Below, piece after piece: positions 1,468-34,674 of a stretch of 36,847 nucleotides of DNA. Below the pieces are notes generated by a model, which was not told the DNA's origin, did no database searches, and saw nothing but the letters and a program-made list of their open reading frames with translations. The stretch is taken from positions 1 to 36,847 of the forward strand of contig JABEVF010000153.1 in assembly GCA_013043965.1 (NCBI GenBank), in the 5' to 3' direction. Source of the DNA: Gallionella sp. GTDB taxonomy: Bacteria > Pseudomonadota > Gammaproteobacteria > Burkholderiales > Gallionellaceae. The number at the start of each line of letters is the position of its first letter. The stretch's first letter is position 1. The translations under genes and the position numbers were made by a program.

Positions 1468-3138
1468 ATGCAAAAGCCCACCGAAAAAATCTGGGACTAC
1501 GAACGCCAGCGACGCAACCGCAAGCTGGAGCGCGCCGCATCTGCGCTGGGCGCATCGCTGCGCGACAAGGTGGTTCCGGCCGATATGGCGGTGCAGCTGC
1601 TCGAAGCGGTGATAGCGCCGGGTGACCGCGTGTGCCTGGAAGGCGACAACCAGAAGCAGGCGGATTTTCTGGCGAAATCATTGACACAAATTGATCCCGC
1701 GAAGGTCAATCGGTTGCACATGCTGCAATCGGTGCTGGCGCTGCCCGAGCATCTCGACCTTTATGAACTGGGCATCGCGGAGCTGCTCGACTTCTCGTTC
1801 TCCGGCCCGCAGGCCGCGCGGCTGGCGCGCATGGTGGGCAAGGGGCAGATACGCATAGGCGCGATCCACACTTATCTCGAATTGTTCAGCCGCTATTTCG
1901 TCGACCTCACGCCGCATGTCGCGCTGGTGGTCGCGCAATCCGCCGATGCGCAGGGCAATCTGTACACCGGCCCGAACACCGAGGACACGCCCGCGATCGT
2001 CGAGGCGACCGCGTTCAAGAACGGCATCGTGATCGCGCAGGTGAACGAGCTGGTGGACAAGGTGCCGCGCGTCGATATCCCCGGCGACTGGGTGAACTTC
2101 GTGATCCCCAGCCCGCGCCCGCATTTCATCGAGCCGCTGTTCACCCGTGACCCGGCGCAGATATCCGAGATACAGGTGCTGATGGCGATGATGGCGATCA
2201 AGGGCATCTACGCGGAGTATGGTGTGCAGCGTCTGAACCACGGCATCGGCTTCGACACCGCCGCAATCGAATTGCTGTTGCCCACCTATGCGGCCAGCCT
2301 CGGGCTGAAGGGCAAGATATGCAGCCACTGGGCGCTCAATCCCCATCCGACGATGATTCCCGCGATCGAGGCCGGATTCGTGAAATCCATACACTCCTTC
2401 GGTTCCGAGCTCGGCATGGAGAATTACATCGCCGCGCGCCCCGACGTGTTCTTTAACGGGCCGGATGGGACGATGCGCTCGAACCGCGCATACTCGCAGG
2501 CGGCGGGCCATTATGCCTGCGACCTGTTCATCGGCTCGACACTGCAGATCGATATGGCGGGCAACAGCTCGACCGCGACGCTGGACCGCATCTCGGGTTT
2601 CGGCGGTGCACCGAACATGGGCGCGGATGCGGCGGGGCGGCGTCATGCCAGCCCGGCCTGGCTGAAGGCCGGCGAGCAGAGACGAAGCCAGCAGCCCGGA
2701 ATTCCGCGCGGGCGCAAGCTGGTGGTGCAGATGGTCGAGACGTTCCGCGAGCACATGCAACCCGCCTTCGTCGCCGAACTGGATGCCTGGAAGCTGGCCG
2801 AGTTCGCCAGCATGCCGATCCCGCCGGTGATGATCTACGGCGAAGATGTCACCCACATCCTCACCGAGGAGGGCATCGCCAACCTGCTGTTGTGCGCCAA
2901 TGCCGAGGAACGCGAACAGGCGATACGCGGCGTGGCGGGTTACACCGAGATGGGCCTGGGCCGCGACCTGCGCATGGTGGAGAATTTGCGCGACCGTGGC
3001 GTGATAAAGCGTGCTGAGGATATGGGCATAGACAAGCGCGATGCTACGCGTGATCTGTTGGCGGCGAGGTCGATCAAGGATCTGGTGCGTGCATCGGGCG
3101 GGCTGTATCAGCCGCCGGCGCGGTTCAGGAACTGGTGA
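1468..3138 (+). CDS. mdcA: malonate decarboxylase alpha subunit (acetyl-S-ACP:malonate ACP transferase)
   Basis: 556 aa; starts MQKPTEKIWDYERQRRNRKLERA; MdcA-type sequence; followed by the other mdc genes. Confidence 0.95.
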   Translation: MQKPTEKIWDYERQRRNRKLERAASALGASLRDKVVPADMAVQLLEAVIAPGDRVCLEGDNQKQADFLAKSLTQIDPAKVNRLHMLQSVLALPEHLDLYELGIAELLDFSFSGPQAARLARMVGKGQIRIGAIHTYLELFSRYFVDLTPHVALVVAQSADAQGNLYTGPNTEDTPAIVEATAFKNGIVIAQVNELVDKVPRVDIPGDWVNFVIPSPRPHFIEPLFTRDPAQISEIQVLMAMMAIKGIYAEYGVQRLNHGIGFDTAAIELLLPTYAASLGLKGKICSHWALNPHPTMIPAIEAGFVKSIHSFGSELGMENYIAARPDVFFNGPDGTMRSNRAYSQAAGHYACDLFIGSTLQIDMAGNSSTATLDRISGFGGAPNMGADAAGRRHASPAWLKAGEQRRSQQPGIPRGRKLVVQMVETFREHMQPAFVAELDAWKLAEFASMPIPPVMIYGEDVTHILTEEGIANLLLCANAEEREQAIRGVAGYTEMGLGRDLRMVENLRDRGVIKRAEDMGIDKRDATRDLLAARSIKDLVRASGGLYQPPARFRNW

Positions 3139-3148
3139 GGCCAACAAC

Positions 3149-3475
3149 ATGACTATCGAAAATCTGAAGTATCGTTTTGACAACGGCACGACTACGCGGG
3201 GTGTGACGGCCATCGTCGGCGTGCTGGGCTCGGGCAATCTCGAGGTGCTGGTGGAGCCGGCCGCGCTCGGCGGCGCGTGCGAGATCGAGGTGAAGACCGC
3301 AGCCAACGGATTCGGCGCAATCTGGCACGCGGTGATGAAGGATTTCTTCGCGCGCCACCGGGTCGGCGACATCCGCGTGTCGGTGAACGACGCGGGTGCT
3401 ACGCCGGCCATCGTCAGCCTGCGTCTCGATCAGGCGATCGAGACCTACCTCGCACAAGGCCGCACAAAAAAATGA
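3149..3475 (+). CDS. mdcC: malonate decarboxylase acyl carrier protein (delta subunit)
   Basis: ATG at 3149: MTIENLKYRFDN...VLGSGNLEVLVEP...; size and position match MdcC. Confidence 0.92.
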   Translation: MTIENLKYRFDNGTTTRGVTAIVGVLGSGNLEVLVEPAALGGACEIEVKTAANGFGAIWHAVMKDFFARHRVGDIRVSVNDAGATPAIVSLRLDQAIETYLAQGRTKK

Positions 3476-4377
3476 GCAATCCCAAGCAAGCGAGATCGAG
3501 CTATTACGAGAGCAGTGCCCGCGCGCGCATCGCCGGGTTACTTGAGCCGGACAGTTTCCACGAATGGCTGCCTGCCGCAGAACGGGTGACCAGCCCGCAT
3601 CTGGCGACACTGGAGCAGCCTGCCGCGTTCGATGATGGCGTGATCATCGGGCGGGGCCGCATCGCGGGAAAAAATATTTTCATCGCCGCGCAGGAAGGCG
3701 GCTTCATGGGCGGGGCGGTAGGCGAGGTGCACGGCGCGAAACTTGCCGGCGTGCTGGAACGCGCAGTACGCGACCATCCTGCGGCGGTATTGCTGTTGCT
3801 GGAGACCGGCGGGGTGCGCTTGCAGGAAGCCAATGCCGGGCTGATCGCCGTGTCGGAAGTGATGCGCGCGATTCTGGCCGCACGTGCGGCGGGCGTGACT
3901 GTCATCGTCGCCATCGGCGGGCAATACGGCTGTTTCGGCGGCATGGGCATCGCCGCGCGTTGCGCCAGCGCTATCATCATGAGCGAGGAAGGGCGGCTCG
4001 GCCTGTCCGGCCCGGAAGTGATCGAGACCGCGCGCGGCGTCGAAGAATACGACTCGCGCGACCGCGCGCTGGTGTGGCGCACTGTCGGCGGCAAGCACCG
4101 TTATCTGCTTGGCGAGTGCGATGTGATCGTGCCGGACAGCATCGCCGCTTTTCGTCAGGCGGTCACGGCATGCATAGACAACGGTGACGACTGGTCGCTG
4201 GCCGCTTTGGAACGGGAGCATCAGATGCTGGCCGAGCGGGTGCAACGCTTCGGTGCCTGCAAGGACGGACGCGACATCTGGCGCGAGCTGGGCTGGGCCG
4301 ATCCTGATGCGATTGCGATGCTGGACAACGACGAGTTCGTCGCGGCGGCGCACGGACACCGTGCAAAGAATATTTAG
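3472..4377 (+). CDS. mdcD: malonate decarboxylase beta subunit
   Basis: ATG at 3472 overlaps the mdcC stop (ATGA); carboxyltransferase-like fold sequence (GGQYGCFGGMGIAARCASAIIMSEEGRLGLSGPEVIE). Confidence 0.93.
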   Translation: MSNPKQARSSYYESSARARIAGLLEPDSFHEWLPAAERVTSPHLATLEQPAAFDDGVIIGRGRIAGKNIFIAAQEGGFMGGAVGEVHGAKLAGVLERAVRDHPAAVLLLLETGGVRLQEANAGLIAVSEVMRAILAARAAGVTVIVAIGGQYGCFGGMGIAARCASAIIMSEEGRLGLSGPEVIETARGVEEYDSRDRALVWRTVGGKHRYLLGECDVIVPDSIAAFRQAVTACIDNGDDWSLAALEREHQMLAERVQRFGACKDGRDIWRELGWADPDAIAMLDNDEFVAAAHGHRAKNI

Positions 4378-4389
4378 AGGCGATACCAG

Positions 4390-5091
4390 ATGGAATGGAA
4401 AAGCGTAGTTGAGAAGATCTTCCCTGACGGACATGAGGTCGAGCAGACGGGCAATCTCATCCGGGGTTACGGCCGCTGCGGGCCGCATACCGCCGCGGTG
4501 ATCGGCACCACCGACCACACCGATGTCGGCGTGGAATTGGCGCTCGCGATGGCGGCTGCGGTCATCAACGTGATACGCGATCATCCCGCCCGCCCCATTG
4601 TGTTCCTGGTCGACACCAGCGGCCAGCGTTTGCGCCATCGCGACGAATTGCTCGGCCTGAACGGCTATATGGCACACCTGGCGAAATGCGTCGAGATGGC
4701 GCGTCGGCGCGGTCATCCCATCATCAGCCTGGTGTACGAACAGGCACTCTCCGGCGGCTTCCTTGCCAATGGCATGATGGCGGATGTGTGCGCCGCGTTG
4801 CCCGAGGCGGAGATACGCGTGATGGGTCTCGCCGCGATGGCGCGGGTGACGCGTATCGGCGAGGAAAGGCTGACCGAACTCAGCAAATCTTCGCCGGTGT
4901 TCGCGCCAGGTGCGAAAAATTATCTGCTGATGGGCGGCCTCGATGCCTTGTGGGAAGGCGATCTGTCGCTCTGTTTGTCGGCTGTGTTGAAGAACATCGA
5001 CAACACCGACCATAGACGTTCCCTCGGGTATGAGCGCGGCGGGCGCATGCTGGCCTATCCTGTCGTGCAACGCGTGTTAGCCAGTGCCTGA
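4390..5091 (+). CDS. mdcE: malonate decarboxylase gamma subunit
   Basis: 233 aa; LVDTSGQRLRHRDELLGLNGYMAHLAKCVEMARRRGHPIISLVYEQALSGGFLANGMMAD. Confidence 0.93.
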   Translation: MEWKSVVEKIFPDGHEVEQTGNLIRGYGRCGPHTAAVIGTTDHTDVGVELALAMAAAVINVIRDHPARPIVFLVDTSGQRLRHRDELLGLNGYMAHLAKCVEMARRRGHPIISLVYEQALSGGFLANGMMADVCAALPEAEIRVMGLAAMARVTRIGEERLTELSKSSPVFAPGAKNYLLMGGLDALWEGDLSLCLSAVLKNIDNTDHRRSLGYERGGRMLAYPVVQRVLASA

Positions 5092-5773
5092 ATCTGCAAT
5101 CAAATCGTGCTCCATACCGGGCCGTCATACTCTGGTGTGGGTGCGGCCGGAATGTCGCGCGGTGGTGGCCGCGCAAGTTAAAGATGACGCGACGCACCGG
5201 CAAGTCGCCGCATGGCTGGCGGCGGATAGGCCCTTGGTGGTTGCACGTCAGCCCGATGTGGCGTTGCCCGACATTCTCGCGGTCGGCCTGGCACTGCCGC
5301 CCGCACTCGGTAAATGTCGCATCGCACTTCGCGTGACCAGCCACGACCTCGTTCGACACGCACCGCCTTTGCGCCTTGCCGGGGTGATCCCGCATGCGCC
5401 TGCCGCGTGGCAGCCTGCACTGGCCGAGTTGCATGATGCGGCAATAAATATCGGTATCGATCTGCGCGTGTTCGGATCATTTTCCTGGCAGAGCTTAAGC
5501 GGACTGTCTTACCTGAGCCCGCAATCGGACATCGACCTGCTTTGGCATCCGTTATCGCATGCGCAGTTGCAGCAAGGCATCGCGCTGCTGGCGCGCTGGG
5601 AACAAAGCAGCGGGATGCGCGCCGACGGAGAGGTGCTGTTCGGCGGGAGCAGCGCCGTGTCATGGCGCGAATGGTGGCAATTAAAATCGGGCGGCGATCA
5701 GCGCGTATTGGTGAAGCGCGACCACAGCGCGGAACTGGTAGCGGCGCGCGAACTGCTGGCGTTGCTGGCATGA
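5084..5773 (+). CDS. mdcG: malonate decarboxylase holo-ACP synthase (phosphoribosyl-dephospho-CoA transferase)
   Basis: GTG start at 5084 overlapping mdcE; SYLSPQSDIDLLW nucleotidyltransferase-like motif; operon position. Confidence 0.85.
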   Translation: MPESAIKSCSIPGRHTLVWVRPECRAVVAAQVKDDATHRQVAAWLAADRPLVVARQPDVALPDILAVGLALPPALGKCRIALRVTSHDLVRHAPPLRLAGVIPHAPAAWQPALAELHDAAINIGIDLRVFGSFSWQSLSGLSYLSPQSDIDLLWHPLSHAQLQQGIALLARWEQSSGMRADGEVLFGGSSAVSWREWWQLKSGGDQRVLVKRDHSAELVAARELLALLA

Positions 5774-6639
5774 AGCCGCTCTTGCATCAACCCGCTGTCG
5801 GGCCGGATCAACGGGCACATCGCATCGCGCGTCTGGCAGTGCGCAGCCTGTACCAGGAGCTGGCGCTGTACCCGAAACCGGGGCTGGTCAGTTTTCGCGA
5901 CAACGGCGCGCACCTGGACATGGATGCCGCGACCTTTGTGCGCAGCATGTTCTCGCTGCGCGGCTACTTCGTCGCGATCTCGGCAGCCGGGATGGTCGAT
6001 GCCGGGTTCGCCCAGATGCAGCGACTCGGTGTCGCTGCCGAGTCGAAAATGCTGCGTGCTACGCGCGGCATCAACACGCACCGCGGCGCGATCTTCACGC
6101 ACGGCATACTTGCCGCCGCCGCGGGCTATGCAATTGCACGCGACATCGAACCTTCTGATGCGATCCTGCGCGCTGTCGTGCTGGAAAAATGCTCACCCGA
6201 TCTGCGCGCCATCGCCATTGCACCCAGCGCGACACCCACGCACGGACAACTGATGGCGGCGCGCCACGGCGCGGCCGGCGCGCGCGGCGAAGCACTGCAA
6301 GGCTTTCCCTCGGTTTTCGAGGCCGCGCTGCCCGCGTTGCGCGGCGCGCTGGCGCGCGGTGCCGATACGCGGCTCGCGCTGCTGCATACCTTCTTCGTGC
6401 TGCTGGCCGAGACGCTGGACACTAACGTGCTGTTTCGCGGCGGAGCCGGAGGATTGCAATTCATCCGGGCACGGGCCGCAGATTTTCTCGAACGCGGCAG
6501 CGTGTTCGAGCCGGGCTGGCAGCAGCGCGCGCTGGCCTTGCATCGCGAGTGTTCGGCGCAACGCTTGTCGCCGGGCGGCTGCGCCGACCTGCTCGCGGCA
6601 GCGTGGTTCATACACCAGTTACAAACCGATCAGCCATGA
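5770..6639 (+). CDS. mdcB: triphosphoribosyl-dephospho-CoA synthase
   Basis: ATG at 5770; LYQELALYPKPGLVSFRDNGAHLDMD and NTHRGAIFTHGILAAAAGY are MdcB/CitG family motifs. Confidence 0.92.
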   Translation: MKPLLHQPAVGPDQRAHRIARLAVRSLYQELALYPKPGLVSFRDNGAHLDMDAATFVRSMFSLRGYFVAISAAGMVDAGFAQMQRLGVAAESKMLRATRGINTHRGAIFTHGILAAAAGYAIARDIEPSDAILRAVVLEKCSPDLRAIAIAPSATPTHGQLMAARHGAAGARGEALQGFPSVFEAALPALRGALARGADTRLALLHTFFVLLAETLDTNVLFRGGAGGLQFIRARAADFLERGSVFEPGWQQRALALHRECSAQRLSPGGCADLLAAAWFIHQLQTDQP

Positions 6640-7559
6640 GCCTCGCGATCCTGTGTTCCGGTCAGGGTGCGCAGCATCCGGCCATGCTGGACATGGTCGC
6701 GGACCATCCGGCCGCCGCAGAAGTCATCAAGGCAGGCGGGGCGGCACTCGGTTTGGATCTGCATGATGTGCCCACTCAACGCGACGAGATGTTCCGCAAC
6801 GCGCTCGCGCAACCGTTGATCTGTCTGACGCAATTGGCGCTCTGGAGCGCATTGCGGCAAGATGCGCCGAAACCCGCCGCGTTCTGCGGCTACAGCGTCG
6901 GCGAACTGGGGGCGTATGCCTGCGCGGGTGCGCTGGGTGCCGCCGAACTGGCGCGCATCGCCGCTGCGCGCGCCGCGCTGATGGACCAGGCCGCCGCGAC
7001 GGCGGGTGGCTTGTTGGCGGTGCAGGGTCTGCGGCGCGACGGGATCGTTCGCCTGTGTGCCGGCCATCAGGCCTGGATCGCCATCGCGATAAGCGATGAG
7101 GAATTCGTCGTCGGCGGCGACGAGAGTGCGCTGACGATGTTGGGTAAGAACTTATCGGAACGCGGTGCCAAGCTGACCCGGCTCAAGGTGGGTTTGGCCT
7201 CGCACACGCCGCTACTCGGTGCTGCCGTTGCGCCGTTCCGCGCGCTGCTTGAAACTTCGTCGATAAGCGCACCCGCCACACCGGTCGTCGCCGGCATCGA
7301 TGCCGCATGGGTGGTGCGCCGCGAAGCGGCAATCGAGAAACTGGCACTGCAATTGTCCGGCACTGTCGAATGGGGGAGTTGTCTGGATATGCTGTACGAG
7401 CGCGGTTGCCGGGTGTTTCTGGAGCTCGGGCCGGGGCGGGCACTGGCGCGCATGACGCGGGCTCGCTTTGCGGATGTCGAGGCGCGCGCGGTGGATGATT
7501 TCCGCTCGCTCGATGGTGTCTCTTCCTGGTTGTTGAAGCATGCGACGGGTCGCCAGTGA
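6636..7559 (+). CDS. mdcH: malonate decarboxylase malonyl-CoA:ACP transacylase (epsilon subunit)
   Basis: MSLAILCSGQGAQHPAML; GYSVGELGAYACAGAL acyltransferase GxSxG motif; ASHTPLL. Confidence 0.92.
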   Translation: MSLAILCSGQGAQHPAMLDMVADHPAAAEVIKAGGAALGLDLHDVPTQRDEMFRNALAQPLICLTQLALWSALRQDAPKPAAFCGYSVGELGAYACAGALGAAELARIAAARAALMDQAAATAGGLLAVQGLRRDGIVRLCAGHQAWIAIAISDEEFVVGGDESALTMLGKNLSERGAKLTRLKVGLASHTPLLGAAVAPFRALLETSSISAPATPVVAGIDAAWVVRREAAIEKLALQLSGTVEWGSCLDMLYERGCRVFLELGPGRALARMTRARFADVEARAVDDFRSLDGVSSWLLKHATGRQ

Positions 7560-7573
7560 TAGACTCGCCGACT

Positions 7574-8587
7574 ATGAAAAATGTCCATCTGATCCTTCCC
7601 GATTTGTTTTTACCCGGACAGTTCGCCGCCGATATGAGCGCCGATCTGGTTTTGCCAGCTTTGCAAAAGCTGCTGTCGCGCGCGACAGCCGTGCCCGCCC
7701 CGGCACGCAGCGTGGAGGCGGCCTTGTGCGCGGCGTTCGGCGTGAACGCGCCAGATGAGGCGGGCCACGATGTCCCGGTCGCGCCCGTCAGCGCGGCGTT
7801 CGATGGTTTGGGCGCGGGCTGCTGGTTGCGTGCCGACCCGGTCCATTTGCGTTTGCAGCGCGATCAGATGCTGTTGTCGCAAGCGGCGGCCAGCGATGAA
7901 GAGGCGCGACAATTCTGCGCGAGCCTGAACGAATATTTCTCGGGGCAGGGGATGACGTTCTTTGCGCCGCATACAGAACGCTGGTATCTGCGCCTGGATC
8001 GCCTGCCCGACATGCAGACCACGCCGTTGTCGGAAGTGATAGGCGCCAACGTGCGCGGCGCGTTGCCTCGCGGCGAAGATGCCCAACGTTGGCATCAGGT
8101 GTTCAACGAAATACAAATGGTCCTGTTCGCCCATCCGCTCAATGATGCCCGCGAAGCGCGCGGTGAGTTGCCGATCAACTCGTTGTGGTTGTGGGGTGGC
8201 GGTACAAACATAGGCGGTTTGGAAAAGACTTATGACCAAGCCGGTTCGGATGAGGTGATGGCGGAGATGTTCGCCGCCGCAGCGGCTGTGCCGTACAGAA
8301 CATCGGCCGGTTCATGGCAAGCCCAGCCGGGCACACAGTTGCTGTTGTTCGGCGCGCTGCGCTCCGCGTTGCAAGCCGGCGATTTGCATGCCTGGCGCGT
8401 GGCCCTGCAAACATTCGAGACGGATTACGCGCAGCCCTTGTGGGATGCGCTGCGCGGCGGAAAGTTGGCGCGCCTGCAGATAGATGTTCTGGCCGGAAAA
8501 AATTCTCAGTGCCTGGTGATGACGCGCGGCGACACCTGGCGGTTCTGGCGGCGCGGCAAGCGTTTGGCGATGTATTCGATAGTGTAG
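7574..8587 (+). CDS. RpfE-type / archaeal-type phosphoglycerate mutase-like conserved protein
   Basis: MKNVHLILPDLFLPGQ... and NEIQMVLFAHPLNDAREARGELPINSLWLWGGG, typical of betaproteobacterial 'regulatory protein RpfE' proteins. Confidence 0.65.
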   Translation: MKNVHLILPDLFLPGQFAADMSADLVLPALQKLLSRATAVPAPARSVEAALCAAFGVNAPDEAGHDVPVAPVSAAFDGLGAGCWLRADPVHLRLQRDQMLLSQAAASDEEARQFCASLNEYFSGQGMTFFAPHTERWYLRLDRLPDMQTTPLSEVIGANVRGALPRGEDAQRWHQVFNEIQMVLFAHPLNDAREARGELPINSLWLWGGGTNIGGLEKTYDQAGSDEVMAEMFAAAAAVPYRTSAGSWQAQPGTQLLLFGALRSALQAGDLHAWRVALQTFETDYAQPLWDALRGGKLARLQIDVLAGKNSQCLVMTRGDTWRFWRRGKRLAMYSIV

Positions 8588-10154: not shown

Positions 10155-10237
10155 GTGGGCTGTAGTATCATCGCGCCGCATTTTTTAACCGGCAACATTA
10201 GAGTCCTTCCTTGACAAGAAGTGAGATAGGGAAAAGT

Positions 10238-11206
10238 ATGAAAATATCGTTTCTGGATTTTGAAGCTCCGATCGCCGAGCTGGAAGAGAAGATCGAGCAA
10301 CTGCGCTACATGCAGGACGACTCCGCGCTCGACATTGCCGATGAGATAGCCAACCTGTCGAAGAAGAGCGAAGCGCTGACCAAGGAGGTGTATGCGAAGC
10401 TCACCGCGTGGCAGATATCCCAGGTGTCGCGCCATCCGCAACGCCCGTACACGCTGGATTACATCGAACATCTGTTCACCGATTTCGAAGAGCTGCACGG
10501 TGACCGCAGCTTCGCCGACGACAAAGCCATCGTCGGCGGGCTGGCGCGCTTCAACGGACAGAGCGTGATGGTGATCGGCCATCAAAAAGGCCGCGACACC
10601 AAAGAGAAGATCATGCGCAATTTCGGCATGCCGCGCCCGGAAGGGTATCGCAAAGCGATGCGTCTGATGCATCTGGCGGAAAAATTCGGCATCCCGGTGA
10701 TGACGTTCATCGACACGCCCGGCGCGTATCCCGGCGTGGGCGCGGAAGAGCGCGGCCAGTCCGAAGCGATCGGGCGCAATCTGTATGAAATGACCGAACT
10801 GCGCGTGCCTATCATTTGCACGGTGATAGGCGAGGGCGGTTCGGGTGGCGCGCTGGCCGTGGCGGTGGGCGACGCTTTGCTGATGTTGCAATACAGCACT
10901 TACTCGGTGATCTCGCCGGAAGGCTGCGCTTCCATCTTGTGGAAGAGTGCGGCGAAAGCCTCCGAGGCCGCGGAGACCCTGGGTATCACCTCCACACGCC
11001 TGAAAGCCCTTGGCCTGGTGGACAAAGTCATCAGTGAACCGTTGGGCGGGGCGCACCGCGATTATGCGGCCACCATGCGCAACGTGAAAAAAGCCCTGCA
11101 GGACGCGCTGAAGATCGCGCAAAGCAAGCCCACCCCGGTGCTGCTGCAAGATCGTTTCAACCGTCTGATGAGCTATGGAAAATTCAAGGAAGTCGAGCTC
11201 GGCTGA
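10238..11206 (+). CDS. accA: acetyl-CoA carboxylase carboxyltransferase subunit alpha
   Basis: [22 protein letters not shown]...; [36 protein letters not shown]. Confidence 0.97.
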
Positions 11207-17822: not shown

Positions 17823-18914
17823 CTAGCGCTTGGTCCGCGTCAAAAACACTGTCACTTCCTCTCGGTCGTGATAGAGCTGTTTCGCGCTCATCTTGTAGTT
17901 GATGCCTTCTTCGTCCAAACGTTTGCGGATGCCTCCAAGCGCGCCGTCGAGCGCGGCCAAGTGTTGTTTCATCGGCAGCTTGAGATTGAAGATGGTGTGC
18001 TTGCACCAGCCCGCTATGAACCATGCGGCTACCAGTTCGGCGACCTTGCCGGGCTTTTCCACCATGTCGCAGATCAGCCAGTCCACGGCCTTGCGCGGCG
18101 CGAACTTGAAGCCGTCCTGCTTGAGATGTTCGACCAGCGGGTGTTTCGCCAGCACGCCTTTCATCGGACCGTTGTCGACCGCGCTCACGCGTATGCCGCG
18201 TTTGACCATCTGCCAGGTCCAGCCGCCGGGTGCCGCACCCAGGTCGACGGCGGTCATGCCAGTCCGCAATAGTCGCGTTTGTTCGCCTTTATCCATGAAC
18301 ACTTCGATGGCCTCGGCCAGTTTGAGCGTGGAGCGGCTCGGTGCCTCCGACGGCATGTTCTGTCTGTGGATGCCCATCACCGATGCCGCGCTGTTGTACG
18401 GGTCGCTGGTGCCGATGAAGGCCTGTGACTTGTCGGGGAAGAAGACATGCAAGCGCGGCAAATGGTGGGTCTTGTATGCCGCGATTTTTTCCGCGCCGTC
18501 CTGCAACTTGCCTTGTTCGCGCAGCGCGGTTTCCAGCAGCGGTTGGAAGCGGCGCGTGAATGCGGACAGCGTCTTGCCATCGTTGGTGTCCGGTACTTCC
18601 AGCCACAGCGCGCCAAATGTGCCGGGCAGTCCGGTGATTGCCGCGAGCAGGGGAGTCAAGCGGTCGCGTTCCGGGAGGACTGTGATGGTGCGTTCCAGGC
18701 GTATCAACTGGCGCGCGAAGATCAGCTCCTGGTAGTTCGGCGTTTGCTCGTTCAGCGTGATTTGCACATAGCCGCTGTCGGCGGCGAGGGACGGTTGTTC
18801 GGTGCCGATGATGGGGCGTTGTTGCTTGGCCTGACGCAGTGCTTCTTGCGCGCAATCTGGTTCGAATCCGGGGCGGCAATACAGCAGCCAATGAGTGAGT
18901 GCGGGTGTGGACAT
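17823..18914 (-). CDS. rlmM: 23S rRNA (cytidine2498-2'-O)-methyltransferase
   Basis: MSTPALTHWLLYCRPGFEPDCAQEALRQ; MTAVDLGAAPGGWTWQMVKRGIRVSAVDNGPM; KxxxxWLICDMVEKP. Confidence 0.93.
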   Translation of the reverse strand: MSTPALTHWLLYCRPGFEPDCAQEALRQAKQQRPIIGTEQPSLAADSGYVQITLNEQTPNYQELIFARQLIRLERTITVLPERDRLTPLLAAITGLPGTFGALWLEVPDTNDGKTLSAFTRRFQPLLETALREQGKLQDGAEKIAAYKTHHLPRLHVFFPDKSQAFIGTSDPYNSAASVMGIHRQNMPSEAPSRSTLKLAEAIEVFMDKGEQTRLLRTGMTAVDLGAAPGGWTWQMVKRGIRVSAVDNGPMKGVLAKHPLVEHLKQDGFKFAPRKAVDWLICDMVEKPGKVAELVAAWFIAGWCKHTIFNLKLPMKQHLAALDGALGGIRKRLDEEGINYKMSAKQLYHDREEVTVFLTRTKR

Positions 18915-18999
18915 GGTGCCATTCTGAAAGAATTCGCGCATACCGACCGGGGATGCGCATGGTCGCGCATTATACGAGCCGACGTTTCGGTCCGCTGGA

Positions 19000-19434
19000 T
19001 TATTGCAGCAGGGGGGCGAATTCGGCCTTGGTGCGTACCTTTTGATTGAAACGGTCGCGGTCGATGACGAAACGTTCGTGCGTGCCTTGCGCGATCATGT
19101 CCACGCCGTCATCGGCCTCCACTTCAAAGGTCACGCGCCGGCCTTCGACCGCGACGATCTGCACTTTCGCGGTGACGATCATGCCGGGCGGGGTGGGTGC
19201 CAGATGGCTGATATTGATATGCGTGCCCAGCGATTGTTCGGTTGGCCAGTCCAGGTGAGGGTTCAGTGCGGTGATGCACGCCCATTCCAGAAAGCCCACC
19301 AGATAGCCGGTGGCGAACACTTCCGGCATCTGCTGGAACTCCGGCGACTCGGGATAGAGCGCGGGCACGGTTTTGCTGTTGGGTACGCGAAAGCTGAAGC
19401 TGTGCTTGAGCCCGGGTTTGAGAGTGTCTTTCAA
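19000..19434 (-). CDS. FlK-like hotdog acyl-CoA thioesterase (fluoroacetyl-CoA thioesterase family)
   Basis: TTG start preceded by GAGGAG on the minus strand. LKDTLKPGLKHSFSFRVPNSKTVPALYPESPEFQQMPEVFATGYLVGFLEWAC...SLGTHINISHLAPTPPG...VEGRR...DGVDMIAQGTHERFVI matches recalled Streptomyces cattleya FlK along its length. Confidence 0.85.
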   Translation of the reverse strand: MKDTLKPGLKHSFSFRVPNSKTVPALYPESPEFQQMPEVFATGYLVGFLEWACITALNPHLDWPTEQSLGTHINISHLAPTPPGMIVTAKVQIVAVEGRRVTFEVEADDGVDMIAQGTHERFVIDRDRFNQKVRTKAEFAPLLQ

Positions 19435-19682
19435 GGTGAACTCCTCGGTTGCGCTGATTGGCAAGCTGCCCGAACTGTACGGATTTGCGCGCAGGGGGTC
19501 AATGATATCGGGAATCGGGGCGTGAATGAAAAGCGATGTACCGGGTTTTCTCAATCCTCAATCCCCGTTCCTTTATTCAGAAACCGCAGCCTGATATCCG
19601 TCGTTTGGTGTGAATGCTCTTGCGGCATCAATCCTGATTTTCGCTGTGTTAAACTCCGCGCCTATTTTTTGGTAAGGTAGCG

Positions 19683-20339
19683 ATGAGTAAACGTTACGAT
19701 TTGATCGTGTTCGATTGGGATGGCACGGTGATGGATTCGACCGCGGTGATCGCGGGTTCGATACAGGCGGCTTGCCGCGATCTGGAATTGACTGTCCCGA
19801 GCGATGAAGCGGCGCGTCATGTGATCGGCCTGGGCTTGCAACAAGCTTTGCGCTACGCCGTGCCGGATGCGCCCGAAGCGATGTACGAGCCGCTGGTCTT
19901 GCGTTATCGCCATCATTTCCTGGCGCAAGACGGTGCGATCCCGCTGTTCGATGGGGCGCGCGAAACCATCGCCGAACTGTATGATGCGGGCTATCGCTTG
20001 GGGGTGGCGACGGGCAAGAATCGCAACGGGCTGGAGCGCGCTTTGCTCAGCACCGATATGAAGGGGTATTTCCATGCCACGCGCACCGCCGAGCAGACCC
20101 GCTCCAAGCCCGACCCGACCATGCTGTTTGAACTCATGGACGAGCTGGGTGTCAGCGCGGGACGCACCTTGATGATAGGCGACACTACCCACGATCTGTT
20201 GCTGGCGCAGAACGCCAAGGTCGATGCGGTGGCGTTGGGGCATGGCGCGCATCCGCCGGAGCAGTTGCAGGAGTTGAACCCGTTAGCCTTGCTGGATGAC
20301 TTCGTGCAATTAAGGGCGTGGTTCAAAGCCAACGCTTAA
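19683..20339 (+). CDS. HAD-superfamily phosphatase (phosphoglycolate phosphatase-like)
   Basis: FDWDGTVMDST motif I; GVATGKNRNGLERAL; GDTTHDLLLAQNAKVDAVALGHG. Confidence 0.88.
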   Translation: MSKRYDLIVFDWDGTVMDSTAVIAGSIQAACRDLELTVPSDEAARHVIGLGLQQALRYAVPDAPEAMYEPLVLRYRHHFLAQDGAIPLFDGARETIAELYDAGYRLGVATGKNRNGLERALLSTDMKGYFHATRTAEQTRSKPDPTMLFELMDELGVSAGRTLMIGDTTHDLLLAQNAKVDAVALGHGAHPPEQLQELNPLALLDDFVQLRAWFKANA

Positions 20340-20359
20340 TCGAATTAACTGGGAGAGTC

Positions 20360-21313
20360 ATGATGTCGGATCAGAATAACTGGGAACGTGCCGTGCTGGA
20401 AAAGCTGGCGATGTCGGCGATACAGGAACAACGCCGCGCGCGGCATTGGAATATCTTCTTCAGGACGCTGACGTTCAGCTTTCTATTCATCGTGCTGTTT
20501 ATCGCGATGGGTTGGTTCGATAAAAAAGAAAACGCGCTGACTCCGGGCAAACACACGGCCCTGGTCGATATGCAGGGGGTGATCGCGTCGGATAGCGCGG
20601 CGAGCGCCGACAACCTGATCCCCAGCCTGCAAGAAGCGTTCAAGGACAGCGGTACGCAGGCGGTGATATTGCGCATCAACAGCCCAGGCGGAAGCCCGGT
20701 GCAAGCGGGGCAGATCAACGACGAAATACGCCGTTTGCGCGCCCAGTATCCGGCGATTCCGCTGTACGCGGTGGTCGATGACATTTGCGCATCGGGCGGC
20801 TATTACGTGGCGGTGGCGGCGGACAAAATATTTGTCGATAAGGCCAGCCTGATCGGCTCGATAGGCGTGCGCATGGATGGCTTTGGCTTCACCGGCATCA
20901 TGGAGAAAGTCGGCGTGGAACGCAGGCTGGTGACGGCGGGCAGCAACAAAGGCTTCCTCGATCCGTTCAGCCCGGTGAGTACGGCGCAACAGGAATACGC
21001 CAAGCAGATGCTGGCGGAGATCCATCAGCAGTTCATCAAGGTGGTCAAACAAGGACGCGGAAAACGCCTCAAAGAAACCCCCGATACTTTTAGCGGCCTG
21101 GTGTGGAACGGTCAGAAGGGCGTGGAGATGGGCCTGGCGGACGGTTACGGCAGCGTGGAATCGGTGGCGCGCGATGTCATCAAAAACGAGAACGTCGTGG
21201 ACTTCACCGTGAAAGAAGGCTTTGCCGACCGCTTGGCCAAACGTTTCGGCGCGGGCGTGGCGAGTGCATTCCCCGGTTTTTCCGCGCAAATCGGCGGGGT
21301 CACACTGCGCTAG
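20360..21313 (+). CDS. sppA: S49 family signal peptide peptidase
   Basis: Single N-terminal TM; INSPGGSPVQAGQI; DICASGGYYVAVAADKIFVDKASLIGSIGV. Confidence 0.93.
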   Translation: MMSDQNNWERAVLEKLAMSAIQEQRRARHWNIFFRTLTFSFLFIVLFIAMGWFDKKENALTPGKHTALVDMQGVIASDSAASADNLIPSLQEAFKDSGTQAVILRINSPGGSPVQAGQINDEIRRLRAQYPAIPLYAVVDDICASGGYYVAVAADKIFVDKASLIGSIGVRMDGFGFTGIMEKVGVERRLVTAGSNKGFLDPFSPVSTAQQEYAKQMLAEIHQQFIKVVKQGRGKRLKETPDTFSGLVWNGQKGVEMGLADGYGSVESVARDVIKNENVVDFTVKEGFADRLAKRFGAGVASAFPGFSAQIGGVTLR

Positions 21314-28256: not shown

Positions 28257-28352
28257 GGCGGGTCTCCCCGCATTGCAAGGTAGTGAACCTGGTCAGGTCC
28301 GGAAGGAAGCAGCCACAGCTATTTATTGTAAGTGCCGGGGGTAAGGCTCGCC
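28257..28352 (+). ncRNA. ffs: 4.5S signal recognition particle RNA (bacterial small SRP RNA)
   Basis: Conserved domain IV GGTCAGGTCCGGAAGGAAGCAGCCA; flanking GGCGGGTC.../...GGCTCGCC pairing; upstream of dnaX as is common. Confidence 0.95.
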
Positions 28353-28413
28353 TCCTATTGAGTGGTGTGAGAGCAAAGGTTCATTCACATCGCTGTCACC
28401 TAAGCTGAGTCTA

Positions 28414-32050: not shown

Positions 32051-33385
32051 ATGGAACAACCTAGCAATAAAACCATCATGTGCGGTGTGTTTTTCTTGGA
32101 TATCGTGGGATATTCCAAGCGTTCCGTGGCCGGGCAGATTTCACTGAAGGAGCGATTTAACAGCTATCTTTCAGCCGCCATCAGGGATGTGCCGTTGTCA
32201 GATCGTATTATTTTGGATACCGGGGATGGCGCGGCGATCAATTTTATGGGGGACATCGAAGATGCCCTGAAAGCCGCGCTGAGCATGCGTTCTAGCATGC
32301 TGCTTGAAGATCCCAATATACAGCCCTCGCTGCTGGTGCGCATGGGGATCAATCTCGGCCCGGTTCGTTTGATACGCGATATTAACGGGCAACCGAATAT
32401 CGTGGGCGACGGTATCAATGTGGCCCAGCGCATCATGGGGTTCGCCGATGCCAGCCAGATATTGGTGTCGCGTTCTTATTTTGATGCGGTGTCGCGTTTA
32501 TCCCCCCAGTATGCGGGGATGTTTCACTATCGCGGGTCTCGCACCGACAAGCATGTGCGCGAGCACGAGGTCTATGCGATCGGGTATCCCGGTGATAAGA
32601 CGACCAAGCCGTTTGCGGTGCAGGACGGGGTGGACAAGCGGCCCAATAAATTTGCGAAGATAGCGGCTCCTATGGTTGCGGCATCGAGTCTTGCGCTAAA
32701 AAAAATGGATGCATGGCTTGAGATATCTCTTAATCACTACCATCACATCGAGCCTAAAAAACGCCCTCTGTATGTCGCCGCAATTGGCGCGCCATTGGTA
32801 TTGTTGATGGCTTTCGGATTGAAATCGGCATTGCGTGGCGATGGTGTGCCAGTCGGTGCAAAACCTGCTGTTGCACGAATGCCCAGAGCGATGCAGGAGG
32901 CGAATGGCATCGCTGTATCGGCCGTTAGTGGAGTGGCTGTAACGGTTGACGCAAAAACGGGTGCGGTCATTCCGCCGAAAAAGCCAAAAGCAGTTAAGGA
33001 TGGGAAATTGCCTTCAGCCACGCCTGTCAAGCCCGGTTCGGTCAAGTCCAACGCTCCCGACGTATTGAAAAAACCTGCGAAACTGACCGAGAAAGAAAAA
33101 GAGGAGGATGCGATCAGTCATGCCGTGCGTAAGGTGTTTGGTTTTGCCAAAGGAGGGGATGTCAACAATAACGCGAAGATTTCCTTGAGTTGTTTGCCGG
33201 GTACGCTGCTGTTTGTAGATGGCACACAAAAAGGTAGAGTGACCTCCGGGGATGCGGTAGCGGAAGTGGCTCCGGGGCGGCATGTGGTGATTGCGATACT
33301 GCCGAGCCAGAAATTGTTCTCGCAGCCTGTGGATGTTCCCGCCGGAAAAATGGTCAGAATCAGGCCGTCTGTGTGTAATCGATAA
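32051..33385 (+). CDS. class III adenylate/guanylate cyclase-domain protein with central TM and C-terminal PEGA-like domain
   Basis: FFLDIVGYSKRS...ILDTGDGAAINFMGD...NIVGDGINVAQRIMGFADASQILVS; TM LYVAAIGAPLVLLMAFGL; C-term LPGTLLFVDGTQKGRV...VAPGRHVVIA. Confidence 0.8.
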   Translation: MEQPSNKTIMCGVFFLDIVGYSKRSVAGQISLKERFNSYLSAAIRDVPLSDRIILDTGDGAAINFMGDIEDALKAALSMRSSMLLEDPNIQPSLLVRMGINLGPVRLIRDINGQPNIVGDGINVAQRIMGFADASQILVSRSYFDAVSRLSPQYAGMFHYRGSRTDKHVREHEVYAIGYPGDKTTKPFAVQDGVDKRPNKFAKIAAPMVAASSLALKKMDAWLEISLNHYHHIEPKKRPLYVAAIGAPLVLLMAFGLKSALRGDGVPVGAKPAVARMPRAMQEANGIAVSAVSGVAVTVDAKTGAVIPPKKPKAVKDGKLPSATPVKPGSVKSNAPDVLKKPAKLTEKEKEEDAISHAVRKVFGFAKGGDVNNNAKISLSCLPGTLLFVDGTQKGRVTSGDAVAEVAPGRHVVIAILPSQKLFSQPVDVPAGKMVRIRPSVCNR

Positions 33386-33435
33386 TTGTTGCGCGTACGG
33401 GTTCATGATAAATTGAAATCAATTAGGTGGGCGAA

Positions 33436-34674
33436 ATGATTAGCAAGTTGGGACGATACGAGGTGATTCGCGAGCTTGGGCAAGGTGCGATGGGCATTGT
33501 CTATCAAGCCAAAGATCCTTTGATTGATCGTGTCGTCGCGATTAAGACCATCAATCTTGGTTTGGCATTGGATGGCAAGGACGAGTACGAGGGGCGTTTT
33601 TATCAAGAAGCGAAGGCGGCCGGGAGACTCAATCATCCGAATATAGTCACGATTTACGATGTGGGCAAGAGTGGTGATATCGCCTACATCGCGATGGAGT
33701 TCTTGCAAGGCCGGGAATTGCGCGACATTATGAACGACGGCGGTCTGCTGCCCCTTGATCATGTCTTGGATATCGCCGCCCAAGTGGCATTGGGTTTGGC
33801 ATACGCTCATGAGTACGACATCATTCACCGCGATGTCAAGCCATCGAACATCATGGTGATACGCGACGGCCATGTGAAAATCACCGACTTTGGCATTGCG
33901 CATATGGCCTCCTCGGCTGTGCGCACACAAACAGGTATGGTGTTGGGTTCGCCAAAATACATGTCGCCCGAGCAAGTGATGGGCAAGGAGATCGATCAGC
34001 GTTCCGATATATTCTCGTTGGGTGTGATGCTGTATGAGATGCTTACCGGACAAGCTCCGTTCAACGGCGACAACGTCAACGCGATAATGTATCAGACGCT
34101 GAATGCCGTGCCTGCACCCCCCCATACCGTGAATCCGCTAGTCCCCGAGATGCTAAATTTCATCGTTGCCAAGGCGTTGGCGAAAGGTGTCGATGATCGC
34201 TATCAAAATGCCAAGGATCTTGCCGCCGATTTGCGCGCATGCCGCGATACGCTCCCAATCTCCAACCAGCAGCTTAACGTAGCGCCGGTCGCAATTACGG
34301 GCGACTGCAAACTGCTGGATGCAATCCCGATCATGAATCGCATAGACCGCACAGGAGATGGGGTGGAATCAACCACTCAGGGATTGTCGCTGACATTTGA
34401 TTCTGCCGCAGCTACTATGCGTTTGGCTGCAATGACCGCGACGAATGAGGACGTGGACAACCTTTGTAAAACCCTAAAGATGCCTAAAGCCAGTGCGGCG
34501 GAGATCAATCAGCTGGCTAACAAGCTCAGTGCCTTGTCGGCTAAACCTGCGAACTTGCGCCCCATCTCCTATGTCAACCAGTCAGATAGGGCACCAGAAC
34601 GAAGCAGTAACCGGATGCTGATTGTCGTTGTCGCATTAGTGCTGTTGGGCATCATTGCCGTTTTCATTTTCTAA
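33436..34674 (+). CDS. tail-anchored serine/threonine protein kinase (PknB-like)
   Basis: GQGAMGIVYQAKD, VVAIK, IIHRDVKPSNIM, ITDFGIAH, SPKYMSPEQ; C-terminal TM MLIVVVALVLLGIIAVFIF at the extreme end. An alternative GTG start lies at 33427. Confidence 0.9.
   Translation: MISKLGRYEVIRELGQGAMGIVYQAKDPLIDRVVAIKTINLGLALDGKDEYEGRFYQEAKAAGRLNHPNIVTIYDVGKSGDIAYIAMEFLQGRELRDIMNDGGLLPLDHVLDIAAQVALGLAYAHEYDIIHRDVKPSNIMVIRDGHVKITDFGIAHMASSAVRTQTGMVLGSPKYMSPEQVMGKEIDQRSDIFSLGVMLYEMLTGQAPFNGDNVNAIMYQTLNAVPAPPHTVNPLVPEMLNFIVAKALAKGVDDRYQNAKDLAADLRACRDTLPISNQQLNVAPVAITGDCKLLDAIPIMNRIDRTGDGVESTTQGLSLTFDSAAATMRLAAMTATNEDVDNLCKTLKMPKASAAEINQLANKLSALSAKPANLRPISYVNQSDRAPERSSNRMLIVVVALVLLGIIAVFIF

Follow-up and report, generated by a model that had tools for sequence, protein, structure and literature searches.

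A lid-bearing FlK-type thioesterase with Met36 in Gallionella sp. and the position of Phe36 within its subfamily

FlK is a standard model for the enzymatic recognition of fluorine and the one famous member of its family, an enzyme that disarms fluoroacetyl-CoA. The catalytic mechanism has been established for FlK itself, and Phe36 is among the residues to which recognition of fluorine is ascribed. Structures of the Streptomyces cattleya enzyme (PDB 3kv7, 3kx8, 3p2q) and of its F36A variant (3p3f/3p3i) are available, and a preference of about 1e6-fold for fluoroacetyl-CoA over acetyl-CoA is reported for this enzyme (as cited in PMC5485738).

A second described system comes from Delftia acidovorans, whose plasmid pUO1 is known for a fluoroacetate dehalogenase (PMC5485738). 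On this plasmid we find the order methyltransferase, FlK-type thioesterase (with Met36), alpha/beta hydrolase, IS element and crcB (L140:7246-10893), in which the alpha/beta hydrolase beside the thioesterase was identified with DehH1, the fluoroacetate dehalogenase. The same gene set occurs in Caballeronia S22, as a published fluoroacetate degradation/resistance cluster with an annotated fluoroacetyl-CoA thioesterase (PMC11812338).

Family, fold and reading frame of the Gallionella protein

The window, as we call the whole analysed stretch of 36,847 nucleotides from Gallionella sp., carries a gene for which an earlier note had proposed a FlK-type thioesterase. The gene is indeed at the coordinates given in the note, which named no strand, and it runs on the minus strand. 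Its features are listed here, with the positions of individual residues taken from the alignment to FlK.

19000..19434, minus strand: FlK-type thioesterase gene, 144 amino acids plus stop (Pfam FlK, 105 bits; PDB FlK, E=1.2e-43)
19441..19446, minus strand: GAGGAG, a good ribosome-binding site, separated from the TTG by 6 nt (from the sequence; relatives have a similar motif there)
19432..19434, minus strand: TTG start codon (TTG/GTG in ten related Gallionellaceae loci)
19336..19338, minus strand: codon for Phe33, a lid residue that is kept
19327..19329, minus strand: codon for Met36, in the lid at the position of FlK Phe36
19309..19311, minus strand: codon for Thr42, the catalytic nucleophile in FlK
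19285..19287, minus strand: codon for Glu50, catalytic in FlK
19225..19227, minus strand: codon for Gly70 (Gly69 in FlK)
19204..19206, minus strand: codon for His77 (His76 in FlK, catalytic)
19072..19074, minus strand: codon for Arg121 (Arg120 in FlK)
19003..19005, minus strand: last codon of the FlK-type gene, followed by the stop at 19000..19002

The window protein matches the Pfam family FlK (PF22636) with E=2.2e-30 and 105.3 bits against a curated cut-off of 27, and shares 54% identity with S. cattleya FlK in a full-length alignment. In a phmmer search of the PDB the best five sequences were all FlK (E=1.2e-43). An AlphaFold model built from 51 relatives (mean pLDDT 97) has FlK chains as its 15 best PDB matches, with an rmsd of 0.9-1.3 A, and any non-FlK structure is at 2.0 A or more from it. 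In the lid region the model has predicted helices at residues 23-26 and 31-34, and the N-terminal lid segment ALYPESPEFQQMPEV, including Phe33, aligns to FlK without gaps. These results confirm that the protein is a FlK-type hotdog thioesterase, an ordinary and intact member of the lid-bearing subfamily. With S. cattleya FlK it shares the full-length alignment, the fold, the Thr/Glu/His/Gly/Arg set, Phe33 and the lid; it differs in having Met36 for Phe36. The lidless FlK-family proteins (TTHA0967, 2cwz; loci L002-L006) have the same fold and the same Thr/Glu/His/Gly/Arg positions, but lack the lid segment and show about 26-45% identity.

The catalytic residues Thr42, Glu50 and His77, noted earlier as retained, are indeed all placed on their FlK counterparts by the alignment, in which a one-residue insertion before the histidine in the window protein shifts FlK His76 to His77. 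The Thr/Glu/His/Gly/Arg set is likewise present in lidless members of the FlK family from the same bacterial order, so that its conservation argues for activity and not for which substrate is used. By homology, the window protein is likely an active thioesterase. Among 135 relatives, a redundant sequence set, V23, L26, F33, V39, T42, E50, G69, H76 and R120 (FlK numbering) are FlK-like in at least 134. Subfamily-wide differences from FlK, also seen in the window protein, are R24P, V54I, A71H, T75S and W102F, and these may be no less important than residue 36 for the choice of substrate.

With the TTG start, the alignment to S. cattleya FlK begins at residue 1, as had been claimed (phmmer, residues 1-137 on 1-136). 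The start position and a GGAG-like upstream motif are kept in relatives (L020, L049-L054, L057, L007, L014), where a TTG or GTG is followed by AAAGA[CT]. This comparison of start regions shows that the TTG is no reading error. The third codon position holds 40 of the 54 differences from L049 and 47 of the 65 from L020, and this concentration demonstrates that the frame is under protein-level selection. The gene is present as a single copy in the window genome.

Residue 36, the fluorinase and fluoroacetate

All 120 loci matching at E<1e-35 encode Met36, in a set where some loci represent the same gene fetched twice; after removal of near-copies, methionine is found in 86 of the 88 non-redundant relatives listed, with leucine and valine once each. 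The carriers include Gallionella, Sideroxydans, Thiobacillus and Sulfuricella, as well as metagenome-assembled genomes (MAGs) labelled Nitrospirota, Methylomirabilota, Acidobacteriota, Aquificota and Archaeoglobus; single labels among these are possibly wrong and the overall taxonomic spread is clear. The nearest named relatives of the window protein are from Gallionella MAGs (89-90% identity), which places the host in Gallionella or close to it. FlK orthologues in loci L049-L128 (Gallionellaceae, Sideroxydans, Thiobacillus, Sulfuricella, Nitrospirota, Archaeoglobus and others) are 60-90% identical to it and all have Met36; their gene neighbourhoods differ. Thus, across the sequences compared, methionine is the residue that lid-bearing FlK proteins normally carry at position 36. 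The earlier observation of a methionine at the Phe36 position is correct, but its description as an altered gate residue has to be reversed: it is Phe36 that is the exception, found in three related Streptomyces proteins.

Phe36 was searched for with S. cattleya FlK in 394 genomes of the Streptomyces group, of which four encode a lid-bearing FlK. Phe36 was seen only in S. cattleya FlK and in two Streptomyces proteins that are 71-73% identical to it (L153 and L154), the other lid-bearing Streptomyces FlKs having methionine or valine. A fluorinase gene is present in both Phe36 genomes examined, its product having 86% and 100% identity to the query, a fluorinase that itself matched those in the PDB with E about 1e-177; no fluorinase was found in the examined genomes with only a Met36, Leu36 or Val36 FlK, nor in the window genome. 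All three Phe36 proteins group together in the tree as a single clade (support 100/98) nested among Met36 proteins. This single clade, together with the fluorinase in the genomes, suggests that the change to Phe36 arose once in fluorometabolite producers, and a single origin is the best reading of the sequences; the co-occurrence of Phe36 and fluorinase is a correlation across three related sequences and not a repeated independent event.

In Streptomyces G946 (L159:9112-10643, L160:5715-14811) genes for a fluorinase, a transaldolase-like protein and a phosphorylase have two FlK genes nearby. The Phe36 FlK gene adjoins crcB and a DUF190 gene, and the second, with Met36, is located some 8 kb away from the fluorinase gene, so that two FlK types are found within one fluorometabolite region. 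In two Streptomyces genomes (L160:5715-7663, L161:2050-3251) a Met36 FlK gene adjoins an Amidohydro_2 gene, possibly as a functional pair. On plasmid p1 of Streptomyces BHT-5-2 (L139:5989-7400) a Val36 FlK gene is followed by what appears, by eye, to be a haloacid dehalogenase type II-like gene, in a stretch left unannotated in the plasmid record.

The pUO1 thioesterase (WP_011137957.1) has 51% identity with the window protein and 40% with FlK. It resembles the window protein in Met36 and the catalytic residues, but differs in its lid sequence, SAAFTGFSDMPP, and in having Ala for Gly43; moreover, its gene stands within a fluoroacetate operon and the window gene does not. The tree places the proteins of pUO1 and Novosphingobium outside the main lid-bearing group, hence their gene context transfers only weakly to the window protein. 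A tblastn search for DehH1 and crcB near other FlK loci gave nothing outside pUO1 except one 33% match at 7 kb in L083. By association in pUO1 and G946, Met36 appears compatible with a role in fluoroacetate metabolism and does not exclude one. A different natural substrate, which the earlier note derived from Met36, does not follow from this residue alone, as relatives with Met36 are encoded near the pUO1 dehalogenase and near the G946 fluorinase.

That the host shows no fluorometabolism agrees with our searches. Neither Phe36 nor a fluorinase, the two marks of a fluorometabolite-producer FlK, is found in the window protein and genome, and a search of this genome for a close fluoroacetate dehalogenase turned up just an alpha/beta hydrolase of weak similarity (55 residues, E=2.9e-7). 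CrcB is encoded in the genome, but is common to most bacteria and its presence is therefore no evidence for a role in fluorine metabolism. No fluoride riboswitch or other RNA was detected near the FlK gene, the Rfam matches in the window being limited to a small signal recognition particle RNA (RF00169) at 28257-28355, just upstream of dnaX.

Gene neighbourhoods and distribution

The window FlK gene is flanked by rlmM on the same strand (17826-18941) and, on its other side, by a phosphoglycolate-phosphatase-like HAD gene (gph) and an S49 peptidase gene on the opposite strand (19683-21313). The order rlmM-flK-gph is also found in L020, L049, L050, L051 and L057. In another 20 loci from Gallionellaceae and Nitrosomonadales, representing about 15 different genes (L058, L059, L060-L067, L069, L072, L076, L110 and others), the order is argD-argF-flK-argG, with all genes on the same strand and gaps of about 20-50 nt. 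In 26 diverse loci from outside the betaproteobacteria no conserved partner gene of FlK was seen; the calls of neighbouring genes in GC-rich loci are based on codon usage. The presence of FlK is patchy, with 9 of the 25 genomes of the genus and about 60 of the 399 of the order encoding it. Together with the changing neighbours, this fits an accessory, stand-alone function.

Elsewhere in the window, a malonate decarboxylase cluster occupies 1468-8587, with mdcA present in 4 of the 25 genomes of the Gallionella genus, and a gene whose start looks adenylate-cyclase-like by eye (no Pfam match) adjoins a serine/threonine protein kinase gene at 32051-34674.

Proposed function and alternatives

By homology with FlK, the window protein may be an active homodimeric lid-bearing thioesterase, with Met36 as the ancestral residue, which removes small activated acyl-CoAs in a protective role; we give this reading about an even chance. 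A small acyl-CoA would enter the pocket, and the lid at the N terminus (YPESPEF-QQ-M) would close over the acyl group with its Phe33 and Met36. Thr42 would then attack the thioester and take over the acyl group, assisted by His77 and Glu50, to give an acyl-enzyme under the closed lid, while Arg121 and Gly70 would hold the substrate and water would release the acid and CoA. Acting on its own, such an enzyme could clear small activated acyl-CoAs before they reach central metabolism, and the best-motivated candidate substrates would be fluoroacetyl-CoA and similar alpha-substituted acetyl-CoAs.

This reading draws on the family and fold matches, the conserved pocket, the prevalence of Met36 across many phyla, the nesting of the Phe36 clade and its fluorinase-bearing genomes, the gene set of pUO1 and Caballeronia S22, the patchy presence and the changing neighbours. 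It is weakened by the lack of a fluorinase or close dehalogenase in Gallionella, for which, moreover, we know of no source of a fluorinated substrate. Detoxification also leaves the argD-argF-flK-argG arrangement (about twenty partly redundant loci) unexplained, and the five subfamily-wide differences from R24P to W102F could alter the substrate.

The same arrangement speaks for a housekeeping role, in which a short-chain acyl-CoA thioesterase would release free CoA from an ordinary metabolite (acetyl-, propionyl- or dicarboxyl-CoA) and Phe36 would have added fluorine selectivity later. In Gallionellaceae the tight, same-strand arg context would tie the thioesterase to the use of acetyl-CoA in arginine synthesis; the very broad distribution in organisms without known fluorine metabolism and the confinement of Phe36 to fluorinase-bearing genomes point the same way. 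However, the fluorine-selective enzyme's lid is kept, as are nearly all of its pocket residues, the presence within a single genus is patchy, and the window genome itself has argD-argF-argG with about 400 bp between argF and argG and no FlK there. Gallionella is a genus of iron-oxidising autotrophs, and for an autotroph unrestrained hydrolysis of acetyl-CoA would probably be wasteful. A housekeeping role is the main rival and has an appreciable chance of being correct, though we lean against it.

A service in malonate or malonyl-thioester metabolism, in partnership with the window's mdc cluster and accA, is very improbable. A link to these genes had been suggested, as mdcA (1468-3138) and accA (10235-11206) lie in the same window, and mdcA is indeed found in 3 of the 9 FlK-bearing genomes of the genus and in 1 of the 16 that lack FlK. 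The co-occurrence is not significant (hypergeometric about 0.12, by hand calculation over 25 genomes), and 6 of the 9 FlK-bearing Gallionella genomes have no mdcA. The FlK gene is separated from mdc and accA by 8-18 kb that hold the unrelated genes rne, rluC, eamA and rlmM, and its neighbours are not conserved: related loci keep rlmM-flK-gph or argF-flK-argG and not mdc. On both grounds the link was rejected.

Finally, membership of another hotdog clade (PaaI, 4HBT or YbgC-like) with a mere resemblance to FlK has practically no probability and was ruled out by profile scores, PDB search and structure comparison: a 4HBT match of 22.6 bits is barely above its cut-off, but the FlK profile gives 105 bits, PaaI (TIGR02286) reaches 12.1 bits against an equivalog cut-off of 118.9, the nearest structures are all FlK whether ranked by sequence or by fold, and the nearest non-FlK structure (2cwz) has just 26% identity at 2.0-2.3 A.

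By itself the window gene is otherwise ordinary, but the subfamily to which it belongs offers a natural experiment, in which a widespread Met36 group that keeps the rest of the pocket stands against a small Phe36 clade linked to the fluorinase. Given this link and the breadth of the Met36 subfamily, how fluorine selectivity arose can be tested directly. It is possible, if in our estimation unlikely, that a working Met36 detoxifier of fluoroacetyl-CoA or a closely similar activated acyl-CoA is present in hundreds of bacteria and archaea that do not fluorinate, and that the FlK of the producers is a late, Phe36-tuned offshoot of it. If this is true, resistance to such a metabolic poison would be far older and commoner than its makers.
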